From: Planctomycetota bacterium
GTDB lineage: Bacteria; Planctomycetota; UBA8742; UBA2392
Length of the DNA: 64,000 bases
Direction of reading: 5' to 3'
Assembly: GCA_019636195.1 (NCBI GenBank)
Contig: JAHBYA010000003.1
Span: 248,001-312,000, forward strand
The translations under genes were made by a program, and so were the position numbers. Numbering within the stretch: the stretch's first letter is position 1; every line of letters starts with the position of its first letter. Of the stretch, positions 13,993 to 18,781 are shown piece by piece. Below the pieces are notes generated by a model. That model was not told the DNA's origin. It saw only the letters and a program-made list of their open reading frames with translations, and did not search any database.

Positions 13993-14122
13993 GAGAGCCT
14001 CGGGTCAGGAGTTCGGCATTGTAGGACACATGGACTTCACGGCAGCATGAAACTGGAATGGATTGTGTGGCCAATGGCCGTGGGCACGGAATTTCGCGAA
14101 TTTTGAACCGGTTGCACTGTGT

Positions 14123-14680
14123 ATGGCATTTCGGGAGTGGATGCTGGTGGCTTCGCTTGACCGCAGGGCTGTCTTTGAGCGCATCATCCGGGACCATCAA
14201 GCCGGTGTCTGGAGGTATTTGCGCTTTCTGGGTTGCAGCACCGCCGAGGCCGACGACCTGACGCAGGAGACATTCCTGGCCGCCTGGAAAAGCGACTTCG
14301 ATGAAATCAACGACGCTGCAACCGCCGGGTTCCTGCGCACAGTCGCCAAGAGCCGCTTTCTGATGGCGGTGCGCACTAAAGGCCGCCGCATCATGGAGGC
14401 TGAGCTGGATGTCGAAGCCGACTGGGTGCAACTGACGAACGACGGCACAGGCTGGGACGAAGGGGTGGTTGCGCTGGAGCAGTGCCTGCAACACGTCAGC
14501 GGCAAGGCGGCAACAGTGCTGGACATGGTTTATCGCGACGAACTGACACAAACCGAAGTCGCCGCGAAGCTGGACATGAAACCTGAAGGCGTGCGGACAC
14601 TGCTTAAACGCGTTTTGGCAAAGCTGCGCGAGTGCATGGAAGGAAAGCTGGATTGGCCAACGAGCGCAAAGAACGATTGA
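14123..14680 (+). CDS. ECF-type RNA polymerase sigma factor (185 aa)
   Basis: Region 2 is visible as YLRFLGCSTAEADDLTQETFLAAW (read in two overlapping pieces), with the DDLTQETF -10-recognition helix. Region 4 is TQTEVAAKLDMKPEGVRTLLKRVLAKLRE, the typical -35 helix-turn-helix. The start could be 14123 or 14141; neither has a strong ribosome-binding site. It overlaps the downstream membrane protein gene by 28 bp, the usual arrangement of a sigma factor with its regulator. Confidence 0.87.
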   Translation: MAFREWMLVASLDRRAVFERIIRDHQAGVWRYLRFLGCSTAEADDLTQETFLAAWKSDFDEINDAATAGFLRTVAKSRFLMAVRTKGRRIMEAELDVEADWVQLTNDGTGWDEGVVALEQCLQHVSGKAATVLDMVYRDELTQTEVAAKLDMKPEGVRTLLKRVLAKLRECMEGKLDWPTSAKND

Positions 14681-16197
14681 TCGAGCAGATGCTCAGAGAG
14701 CGTCTGGGCGGCCACAAGCCGCCGGACCTTTCGCGCAGCATCCTGGACCGCCTTGAAGGGGAAGGTACCGGCCCGCAGTTGCGCGTTGTACGGGGCGACC
14801 GGGCAGCCCCGCGCCGGTCGCACATGGGTGCGAAGCCGGCAAATTGGCGCAGCGTGGCGGCGGCTGTAGCCTTGATCGGCGCAGTCGGCATTGCCGCCGC
14901 AGCATTTCTGCTGAACATGCCGCGGCACCCGCAAACGCCAGTGGCAGGCGGCAACGGGGCCACAAAGGAACAAACCAAGCCGGGCCCGTCAGGGCAGGCT
15001 GTGAACGACAATCCCGTTCGTGCCAATCAGGAGCCAGCACCGCAACAGCCGGACAACGAGATTGCTCCCTACTATGAAACCGGCCCGTCAAGGCCAAGTG
15101 GGGACGATGCACCTGAACCCAAGCCCGAACCAAAACCCGGAACTGAACCCGGGCGTGAGCCCCAACCCGAAAAGCCGCGCGAGGAAGTGGAAGCGCCTCA
15201 AACCCCGGAGTCTGCGCGGCCGCCGACAGAAGTTCCTGCTGCGCCCGCGCCAAAGGCCTTAGTGCTGGCAACCCTGTTGCAAGCCACCGAAGGCGCCAGG
15301 CTCGCGTTCAAGCGCGCCGAAGCCGCCCGCTACGAGGACTGGACCGCCGACGCGCGCATCGAAAGCGGCATGTGGCTGCGCGCCCGCAAGCCGGTGGCGT
15401 TGGCGGTGGGGGACGCGCGGGTGTACTTCGATGGCGAGGTGATGCTGGCTGGTGATGACGCGACGCTGCGCATCGAGGTTGCCGGCGATTCGGTTTACAT
15501 AGAGGCCTATGGCGAGCGTGTGTTTACGGTCGCCCGGGGCGATGCGGCGTTCACGTTCACGCAAGCTGAGGTTGTTGCCGAGAAGTCAGGCTTGCGCCTG
15601 AACGTAAGCTGCCTCGCGGGAGAGGTTGCATCCGGCGGCGCGACGCTCACTGCCGGGAGCTCAGCTTCGCTCAGTGAAAAGGGTTTTGGCAGGCCCAAGG
15701 CCGAAGGCGCGAAGTTGCGCTCGCATCCGCTTGTGCACGCGGTTGATACAATCTTCCGGCTTGTGCGTGACGACCTTGACGACGAAGGCGCGGCAAGCCG
15801 CGTGTATCTGGGCGTAGTTGACAAGGGTGTAGCGACCGGCAAGGGCAAACAGGCCTTCGGCGTGAAGCTGCGCGAGCCGCTGACCGTGCGCGACAACGCT
15901 TACGTGCGCATTCGGCTTCGCGTGCGCAACAGCCAGGGCATCAGCATCGGCGTCAAGGGCGAAGAAAACGCCGACTGGCAGTACTTTCAGCACCACACCA
16001 ACTACGTCATCAACGACAAGTGGATCACGCTGACCGTGCCGCTGCATGAGCTGCGATCTGAAGGCAAGGGTGAAGGCAAGGACAAGCCCCTGTTTTCGGG
16101 TGCGATCATCAGCGCGTTTCAGGTGATTTCGTGGGATGACAAGTCAACCATTGAGATAGACTGGATTGAGTTCGGGATCGACCCTAAGTGGAAGTAG
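14653..16197 (+). CDS. Membrane-anchored FecR-like / anti-sigma-type protein with C-terminal sugar-binding-like domain (514 aa)
   Basis: The TTG at 14653 has GGAAGG upstream and lies inside the end of the sigma gene. A cytoplasmic N-terminus of about 70 residues precedes one membrane helix (around 70-90), then a Pro/Glu-rich linker (about 95-205) with repeated PEPKPEP-like units. A FecR-like beta domain (about 205-340) contains VARGDAAFTF and GGATLTAGS. The last roughly 170 residues are a beta-sandwich resembling a carbohydrate-binding module (WITLTVPLHEL, EIDWIEFGI). It is likely the sensor/regulator of the adjacent sigma factor; the ligand is unknown. Confidence 0.72.
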   Translation: MANERKERLIEQMLRERLGGHKPPDLSRSILDRLEGEGTGPQLRVVRGDRAAPRRSHMGAKPANWRSVAAAVALIGAVGIAAAAFLLNMPRHPQTPVAGGNGATKEQTKPGPSGQAVNDNPVRANQEPAPQQPDNEIAPYYETGPSRPSGDDAPEPKPEPKPGTEPGREPQPEKPREEVEAPQTPESARPPTEVPAAPAPKALVLATLLQATEGARLAFKRAEAARYEDWTADARIESGMWLRARKPVALAVGDARVYFDGEVMLAGDDATLRIEVAGDSVYIEAYGERVFTVARGDAAFTFTQAEVVAEKSGLRLNVSCLAGEVASGGATLTAGSSASLSEKGFGRPKAEGAKLRSHPLVHAVDTIFRLVRDDLDDEGAASRVYLGVVDKGVATGKGKQAFGVKLREPLTVRDNAYVRIRLRVRNSQGISIGVKGEENADWQYFQHHTNYVINDKWITLTVPLHELRSEGKGEGKDKPLFSGAIISAFQVISWDDKSTIEIDWIEFGIDPKWK

Positions 16198-16207
16198 GGG
16201 GCTGCTC

Positions 16208-17407
16208 ATGAAACGAACCGCGATTGCCTTGCTGCTGCTGCTGCCGCTGGCGGCCATCAGCAGCGCCAACGAGCTGACCGACGCCAGCTACGAAAGAGTG
16301 CGCAAGCACGTCCTGCCCAGCGCCGAAGAAGAGGCCTGGCGCAAGAACGCGTGGCGCACCACCTTCTGGCAGGGCGTGATCGACGCCAACAAGGAGGACA
16401 AGCCCGTCATGCTGTTCGCCATGAACGGCCACCCGTTCGGCTGTACGTGAAACAACGGTGTCATAGCCAGACAGTCTGTCTGGAACGATCCTGAGGTAAT
16501 GAAACTGCTGGAAAGCTTCGTGCCCTGCGCCGACGAAGTGTGGCGCCTGCACAACCTGCGCGAGCCCGACTGCCTGCACTTCCAAAAGTGGTGCGACGAA
16601 GGCGGCACGCTCAACGGCGACGGCCGCACAGCCACACGCCAGGGCACATATTGCTGCACGCCCAGCGGCCAGTTTCTGGGCAGCGCCAACCATCGCGACC
16701 CGCGGCGCATTGCGGCCATGCTGAAAGAGGCGCTGCGCAAGTGGAAAGAAATCAAGAAGGAAGATCGCCTGCTGAAGGAAGACCCGGTCAAGACATGGGA
16801 GCAGATCGACCGCAGCGAGAAGAAGTATCCCGCTGACGGAATGGTGCTGCGCGTCAACAGCCGGGACATGCCGCGCACCGGCCTTGACCCCAATGACTGG
16901 CGCACACACGCCTGGAACTTTGATTACGCTTGGTTCAAGAAAGACGAAGTGGCCCGCATGCTGCCCAAGACGCTGGGCAAAAAGACGGAGTGGAGGCTGC
17001 CCGACGACCTGGTGCGCCGCCTGGTGCGCATCCACCTCGTGGACAACGTGCGCGGCCAGACCGGAGGCTATCGCCCTGAGGCAGTCGAAGATGCCGAGAT
17101 CAATTGCGAAGTCACGCGCATCAAGAAGAACATTGTAACCATCAAGTTGACCGGCAAGGTCAAGCAGCAGCAGGACGGCCGCGGCGTTGAAGGCACGATG
17201 CTGGGCGAGGCGCTGTACAACACGAAGGACGAAAAGTTCGACAAGTTCGAGATCGTGGTGCTGGGCACGCGCTGGGGGGCCACCCAGTACAACCGACGCG
17301 AAGACGACCGCGAACGCAGCCCGATCGGGTATGTACTGCACCTTGCCAGCGACCACCCGACCGAAAAGATCGCGCCAGCCGAATTCGGGAGCTACGGCTG
17401 GAGGTGA
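16208..17407 (+). CDS. Candidate selenoprotein: secreted thioredoxin-fold protein with in-frame UGA (399 aa)
   Basis: A signal peptide (residues 1-20) is followed by a thioredoxin-like region in the style of the DUF255/thiol-redox folds (DKPVMLFAMNG..., then WNDPEVMKLLESFVP). The redox site reads G-C79-T80-U81, where residue 81 is a TGA at 16448-16450. The reading frame continues without other stops to 17407 with clear protein-like sequence. A 7-bp hairpin with a GUC loop begins 16 bases after the UGA, fitting a bacterial SECIS. If TGA were a stop, the two halves (16208-16450 and 16499-17407) would be a truncated redox domain and an orphan C-terminal domain. Whether the genome has selA/B/C/D cannot be seen here. 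Alternatives are a nonsense mutation or sequencing error. Confidence 0.7.
16467..16483 (+). promoter_or_regulatory. Putative bacterial SECIS hairpin
   Basis: CCAGACA (16467-16473) pairs perfectly with TGTCTGG (16477-16483) around a three-base GTC loop. The loop starts 23 bases after the in-frame TGA (16448-16450). Known bacterial SECIS elements are small stem-loops just downstream of UGA with the loop roughly 16-37 nt away, a G in the first loop positions and usually a GU. All of these hold here. The surrounding codons remain in frame. Confidence 0.65.
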
Positions 17408-17431
17408 AGGCGGGGCGGAAGCCCCCTGTTG

Positions 17432-17459
17432 AAAGGGCGCTCCGGTGCGGGCGCCCTTT
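17432..17459 (+). terminator. Terminator-like hairpin after the selenoprotein candidate
   Basis: AAAGGGCGC (17432-17440) pairs with GCGCCCTTT (17451-17459) over a 10-base loop, 24 bp after the stop codon. The A/T ends of the stem supply a short U-run. It could act in both directions. Confidence 0.6.
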
Positions 17460-17498
17460 GCATTGACCGCTACGAAGCCGCGATCAAAACTGCGGGCC

Positions 17499-18245
17499 AT
17501 GGCCAACCGAGATATGAAGCTACTGTGGCAAGCGCCGGCAGAAGTGCCGCGCTTCTTTGAGCCTGCCGGCATCGCATCCTTGCCCGAGCCCGCCCGACGC
17601 TATTTGCTGCACTCGATCGCGCCGGGCACGCCGCTTGTCACCGCCTTCAAGTTGCGCATGCGCGGTGAAATCAAGCTTAAGGGCACGTGGTGTCCCTTCA
17701 CAGCCGAACAGGTGACACGGGCTTGGGACGGTTTTGTCTGGCGCGCCCGTGTTGTAATGAAGGGCCTGCCTGTGTTCGGGTCTGACCGCTGGATCAAGGG
17801 CACGGGCGCCATGAAGTGGAAACTGCTGGGTTTGCTGTCCGTTGCCTCCGGCGACGGCCCTGACATTTCGCGCTCTGCCCTTGGCCGCATGCAAGGCGAG
17901 ATGATCTGGTTGCCGACGGCGTTGCTCCAGCCGCAAGTGAAGTGGTCGTCGCGTGCGGACGATCATGTGCGCGCAGAGTTTGAAAGCGGAGGAAGCTTTG
18001 TGGCGCTGGATCTGTCTATCGACGCCGACGGCCGCGTTCATTCACTCGCTTACCTGCGCTGGGGAAACCCGGGCGTGGAGCGCTTCGGCGAGCACCCCTT
18101 CGGAGGCGAGTTTGACAGCGAGAGTACGTTTCAAGGAGTCACCATTCCCAACGGCATGCACATCGGGTGGAACAATCATCCGGGGCGACCCCGCCAGGAG
18201 TGGGAGGGCTTCCGGGCTACAATCGAGTACATCGAGTTCAGGTAG
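17499..18245 (+). CDS. DUF6544-like protein (248 aa)
   Basis: The ATG at 17499 starts a soluble protein with the blocks RYLLHSIAPGTPL, MRGEIKLKGTW, a GDGPDISRSALGRMQGEMIWLPTALL segment (read as two pieces), and a C-terminal GVTIPNGMHIGW. These are recognisable features of the DUF6544 family, of unknown function. A second in-frame ATG lies at 17514. The next gene starts 11 bp downstream and is probably co-transcribed. Confidence 0.7.
   Translation: MANRDMKLLWQAPAEVPRFFEPAGIASLPEPARRYLLHSIAPGTPLVTAFKLRMRGEIKLKGTWCPFTAEQVTRAWDGFVWRARVVMKGLPVFGSDRWIKGTGAMKWKLLGLLSVASGDGPDISRSALGRMQGEMIWLPTALLQPQVKWSSRADDHVRAEFESGGSFVALDLSIDADGRVHSLAYLRWGNPGVERFGEHPFGGEFDSESTFQGVTIPNGMHIGWNNHPGRPRQEWEGFRATIEYIEFR

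Positions 18246-18691: not shown

Positions 18692-18781
<90 letters not shown>

Follow-up and report, generated by a model that had tools for sequence, protein, structure and literature searches.

Does the in-frame TGA at positions 16448..16450 (+ strand) of this window (the whole 64,000-nucleotide stretch of DNA that was analysed) end a short gene, or does it specify selenocysteine (Sec), and what would such a residue do? When the codon is read as a residue, a single 399-residue frame runs from the ATG at 16208 to 17404 and ends at a second TGA (17405-17407), so that the gene occupies 16208..17407 on the + strand and the internal TGA becomes residue 81, which opens the first helix of a thioredoxin fold. 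The earlier note had described an otherwise single 399-codon gene with a signal peptide and with Cys79-Thr80 ahead of the TGA; the frame and the order C79-T80-U81 were confirmed, and residues 1-20 (MKRTAIALLLLLPLAAISSA; 16208..16267, +) read as signal-peptide-like. Homologues in Marinimicrobia begin with sequences that read as lipobox-like, and the product is probably exported. Our main reading is that the gene product is a selenoprotein with a thioredoxin fold, to which, for both parts jointly, we assign a probability of about 0.88; that the TGA at 16448-16450 is a selenocysteine codon is, taken by itself, close to certain.

The full protein was predicted by AlphaFold2 with a mean pLDDT of 92.4 (Cys modelled in place of Sec). 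The model contains a thioredoxin-fold domain resembling AGR2, DsbD-gamma, DsbH, and Thioredoxin_7 (residues 23-187; 16274..16768, +) and an alpha/beta C-terminal domain with long antiparallel strands, for which there is no convincing solved relative (residues ~210-399; 16835..17404, +). A Foldseek search with the full model returned no match at an E value of ≤0.001, the top ones resembling chance beta barrels. The thioredoxin domain was then modelled and searched separately, and residues 23-187 matched AGR2, a DsbH-like Brucella domain, a Bacteroides exported domain, and DsbD-gamma at a Foldseek probability of 1.00 and TM-scores of ~0.5, which bears out the earlier description of the protein as thioredoxin-like. 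In the model, U81 begins the first helix, the site of the attacking Cys in CxxC and the position expected of the active residue in a thioredoxin-fold protein; hhalign placed it opposite the second (nucleophilic) Sec of the Trx7/PDZ domain. The residue at +3 is Gly (U-N-N-G). A nearly invariant T-R-Q-G-x-Y lies where the cis-Pro segment would be expected from the strand order, and Gln145 seems, judging from secondary structure, to replace the usual cis-Pro. With U-N-N-G lacking CxxC or UxxC and with this apparent Gln145, the protein falls outside thioredoxin (CxxC) proper; lacking a Cys at +3 and, apparently, cis-Pro, it would be an atypical oxidoreductase.

The second chalcogen of the C-x-U motif is Cys79 (codon 16442..16444, +). 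Among the 180 members that carry Sec, 158 have C-x-U, 12 have C-U, and 10 lack Cys both at -1 and at -2; the partner is thus usually, though not always, a nearby thiol. In the C-U members, the partner thiol seems to have moved by one position. Divergent members with C-U occur at loci L083, L241, L296, L297, L298, L299, L240, L249, L250, and L300.

We postulate that Sec81, in a motif that lacks the resolving Cys, stands where CxxC has its attacking Cys and that Cys79 is its likely selenenylsulfide partner. The envelope substrate attacked by Sec81 would be a disulfide, a sulfenic acid, or a peroxide, Cys79 would then resolve the product as a selenenylsulfide, and the C-terminal domain may pick the substrate or dock a partner protein. 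Given the predicted fold and the residue positions, we lean toward envelope thiol/disulfide or peroxide chemistry via a C79-U81 selenenylsulfide as the function, with modest confidence.

The protein might also be a selenoprotein in which Sec is a ligand, together with C79 and His75, for a metal or metalloid in the envelope (for example, Cu, Hg, or As). The N-G-H-P and C-x-U motifs are very strongly conserved, with His75 invariant; Gln is apparently at the cis-Pro position, and several known C-U selenoproteins handle metals (Table 1, PMC13188914). However, C79 is shifted or absent in some members, and comparison of gene contexts revealed no conserved metal-transport or metal-resistance neighbours. 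We consider metal binding unlikely, though not negligibly so.

What the neighbourhood does contain, in the window, is a gene adjoining upstream at a gap of 10 nt (14632..16197, +), with no Pfam match over the cut-off and with a counterpart directly upstream in eight close relatives. The first gene of the same run encodes an ECF-type sigma factor (Sigma70_r2, Sigma70_r4; 14063..14680, +). This gene order is shared with the home family only; the loci of other members that were compared have no common neighbourhood. In the home family, the selenoprotein gene is probably co-transcribed with the ECF sigma factor gene and the gene at 14632..16197, as judged from gene order, and this probable co-transcription suggests, for the home family only, that expression is stress controlled. 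Directly 3' of the selenoprotein gene lies one for a DUF6544/DUF6920 protein (17445-18245), for which no link to the family was seen in other loci.

In our main reading, SelB, Sec-tRNA-Sec, and a hairpin just 3' of UGA81 recode the codon as selenocysteine. The 5' arm of the hairpin, CCAGACA (16467..16473, +), starts 16 nt after the TGA; the apical loop is GUC (GTC in DNA; 16474..16476, +), 23 nt after the UGA and with G in the first position; and the 3' arm, TGTCTGG (16477..16483, +), forms seven pairs with the 5' arm, all exactly as the earlier note had claimed. The bacterial SECIS model used here allows loops of 3 to 9 nt and stems of 4 to 16 bp, with a G within the first two loop positions, the loop 16 to 37 nt after the UGA, and an energy of ≤-7.5 kcal/mol (PMC13188914). 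With its GUC loop, 7 bp, 23-nt distance, and -8.3 kcal/mol, the window hairpin agrees with this model throughout, and recoding the same peptide synonymously 200 times gave a mean of only -2.9 kcal/mol (p = 0.02).

The homologues show the same tendency. Across 134 sequences, the best hairpin that conforms to the model averaged -9.0 kcal/mol, versus -4.8 for synonymous recodings; 72% attained -7.5 kcal/mol and ~28% fell short in this simple hairpin test. In a window-type subgroup of 46 sequences, the seven stem pairs were 95.7% paired, versus ≤62% in slid versions, and Arg88 was encoded by AGA or AGG in 41 of the 46, codons that make up 9.5% of Arg codons gene-wide. In members without Trp92, the stem is displaced and closes a loop of five bases, frequently CGUGC or CGUGA, so the position of the stem has shifted between lineages; this stem was 77.9% paired, versus ≤52% when slid, and each of its seven pairs shows changes on both sides, although in both pairing statistics the sequences are related and hence are not independent events. 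The G is retained within the first two loop positions in the commonest loop forms of both stem types. On this comparative evidence, the window hairpin is under RNA-level selection.

The genome from which the window comes (3.93 Mb, 94.9% complete) has all of the Sec genes that the earlier note had proposed to look for. We detected selA (532 bits; C8:17253-18605), tRNA-Sec, the product of selC, ~0.9 kb from it (69.2 bits; C8:19550-19638), selB (340 bits, in a 655-aa frame), and selD (396 bits; L200, G000:C22:124213-125136, minus strand), the last with an in-frame TGA of its own in SGAGUGCK. A Trx7/PDZ protein, which scores 437 bits with NF041199, the model of an already known selenoprotein family (cut-off, 300), carries two in-frame TGAs, in FRUDPUADCK. 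This machinery, the Sec-type selD, and the further TGA-bearing proteins indicate that Sec decoding is in use in the genome.

Several side observations were made. At the Trx7/PDZ locus of this genome (L202, G000:C21:47500-52500; match at C21:50019-50231, minus strand), UDPUADC replaces the catalogued CxxU motif, and two further Trx7/PDZ copies, with UVPUASC and UVPUVSC, adjoin each other at L206. A protein that joins a thioredoxin fold to a C-terminal TPR part (L201:2190-3170, G000:C23) has an in-frame TGA that yields EWUGPC; the whole protein has no NCBIfam model above the cut-off, and it is possibly another unnamed selenoprotein. A tRNA at 18692-18781 was rejected as a tRNA-Sec candidate; it is a tRNA-Ser(TGA) whose score with the tRNA-Sec model, 50 bits, just exceeds the Rfam gathering score of 47 bits, so that it can mislead automatic calling of tRNA-Sec.

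Homologues keep the codon. Among the matches listed, 194 distinct sequences span site 81, of which 180 have TGA, 8 Ser, 4 Asp, 1 Pro, and 1 Cys; because the listed non-TGA matches were deliberately pursued, the proportion of Sec in this count is more likely to be too low than too high. Beyond the TGA, dN/dS is ~0.16 (window gene versus a same-genus relative, 79% identical), and this constraint, with the recurrence of TGA at the same site, is far beyond chance. A selA gene was found in 73 of 75 genomes with a TGA-bearing member and in 141 of 219 others (Fisher p = 5e-10, a guide only, since the genomes are related), and selA was above the cut-off in 13 of 14 host genomes checked via named loci. 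Decoding of the UGA as some other amino acid, or low-level readthrough, in either case without selenium, would be expected to give the long product as well, and nothing specific favors it; the gene terminates at a TGA of its own, the Sec pathway of the genome is complete, the hairpin is evidently selected as RNA, and TGA-bearing members co-occur with selA, so we regard this explanation as very improbable. A pseudogene, a point mutation, or a sequencing error, as a single in-frame stop in a draft assembly might suggest, has a negligible probability and is already refuted, because the TGA recurs in 180 distinct homologues, including one on a complete isolate chromosome (Planctomycetes bacterium Pla163, CP036290.1), and selection persists beyond it. 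With the machinery, the hairpin, and the homologues in agreement, the proposal of bacterial selenocysteine insertion in the earlier note stands, and recoding of UGA81 as Sec is strongly supported by the sequence evidence.

One expectation did not hold: the alignment that the earlier note had called for was to show whether homologues carry Cys at position 81, and it returned a conserved TGA and 1 Cys in 194. That single Cys member, at L282, is divergent, with a CDDC motif and the entire C-terminal domain kept. Our initial view that there was no Cys homologue was therefore withdrawn, L282 being a true member and the proteins at L287-L289 distant Cys relatives. In these alignments Sec is almost fixed in the family, Cys being limited to one divergent member and to distant relatives of the domain. 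The non-Sec sequences have Ser, Asp, or Pro in 13 of 14 cases, and two genomes of one genus (G097 and G174), in which we found no selA match, have sole copies that carry Ser. We speculate, at slightly less than even odds, that the family is essentially Sec obligate: after Sec is installed, Cys cannot do the job, and loss leads to Ser, Asp, or Pro, in proteins that are presumably dead or repurposed. If true, this would be a rare natural case requiring Sec chemistry and not merely Sec speed. The deep-Sep authors state that Cys homologues seem to exist for every known selenoprotein (PMC12013277). Selenoprotein finders based on homology search for Cys/TGA pairs and can therefore miss a family nearly devoid of Cys members, and a gene finder that treats TGA purely as a stop would cut the product to an 80-residue fragment. 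The family suggests that more Sec-dominant families may be hidden in metagenomes, and it offers a natural way to test why Sec is retained. Tandem family copies occur at G042:C42:50022-52290, G200:C104:17653-19750, and G110:C37:8985-11895; in the G200 and G110 tandems, one copy has Sec and the other Asp or Ser, a natural pair of Sec and non-Sec paralogues.

Relatives were found in 84 of 294 sampled Planctomycetota genomes in a phylum-wide search and in 101 of 392 in a profile search, and nearly all of the site-spanning matches in these searches had one TGA at the site. Profile searches also found relatives in 59 of 291 genomes from the phylum of the Armatimonadota member and in 14 of 245 from that of the Marinimicrobia member. 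The family is thus common, occurring in about a quarter of sampled Planctomycetota and a fifth of the Armatimonadota member's sampled phylum. A scan of GTDB contigs yielded 210 relatives, with TGA in all 80 that were kept, from Planctomycetota, Armatimonadota, Marinimicrobia (Fidelibacterota), and, in a single record, Chloroflexota. A quick tree groups the Marinimicrobia members as one clade nested in planctomycete sequences, which suggests transfer. This is a large, exported thioredoxin-like family, so far unnamed, that spans at least three bacterial phyla.

The earlier note could not name the family, and the database searches gave no name either. The window protein and 57 members had no match over the cut-off in Pfam or NCBIfam (release 20, June 2026); Thioredoxin_7 (PF13899) matched 7 of the 57 below its gathering cut-off (best E value, 0.0064). 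Sequence searches of the PDB and of PLSDB plasmids gave no match, Rfam gave nothing up to an E value of 1 over window positions 16000-17600, and no entry in the table of a 2026 catalogue of 119 selenoprotein families evidently corresponds (PMC13188914). Planctomycete selenoproteins are treated in PMC4807772. We found no description of the family in the open-access literature that was searched, and an earlier mention elsewhere is possible.

Several known systems are nevertheless comparable. The Armatimonadota Cys proteins at L287, L288, and L289 match the thioredoxin domain at 33 to 35 bits, and their GHxDExxPCANA motif puts Cys in the place of Sec, but they have ~330 residues, another C-terminal part, and no Cys at -2; L287, the one of the three that was scanned, had no Pfam or NCBIfam match above the cut-off. 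AGR2/AGR3, DsbD-gamma, and DsbH (Thioredoxin_7, PF13899) share the fold and have the active residue at the same place, whereas they use Cys (CxxC or CxxS) and lack both C-x-U and a comparable C-terminal domain. The VPGUxxT proteins (NF041382/NF041383) combine a thioredoxin-like domain at the N-terminus with a long C-terminal part, and profile matches to them are weak (15 bits in a few members, 27 bits in the divergent Cys member L282), far below the curated cut-offs of 350 and 275 bits; the motif of the family described here is GCTU, and its C-terminal part is different. The Trx7/PDZ family (NF041199) also differs, in that the window protein has neither PDZ domains nor CxxC or UxxC, and the protein gave no match to NF041199 at an E value of ≤1 and so fell outside its 300-bit membership cut-off. 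The two domains nevertheless align by hhalign with an E value of 5e-5 and a probability of 68%, and they have in common an exported thioredoxin-fold domain with Sec at the place of the nucleophile and a further chalcogen upstream (UxxUxxC in the Trx7/PDZ protein of this genome).
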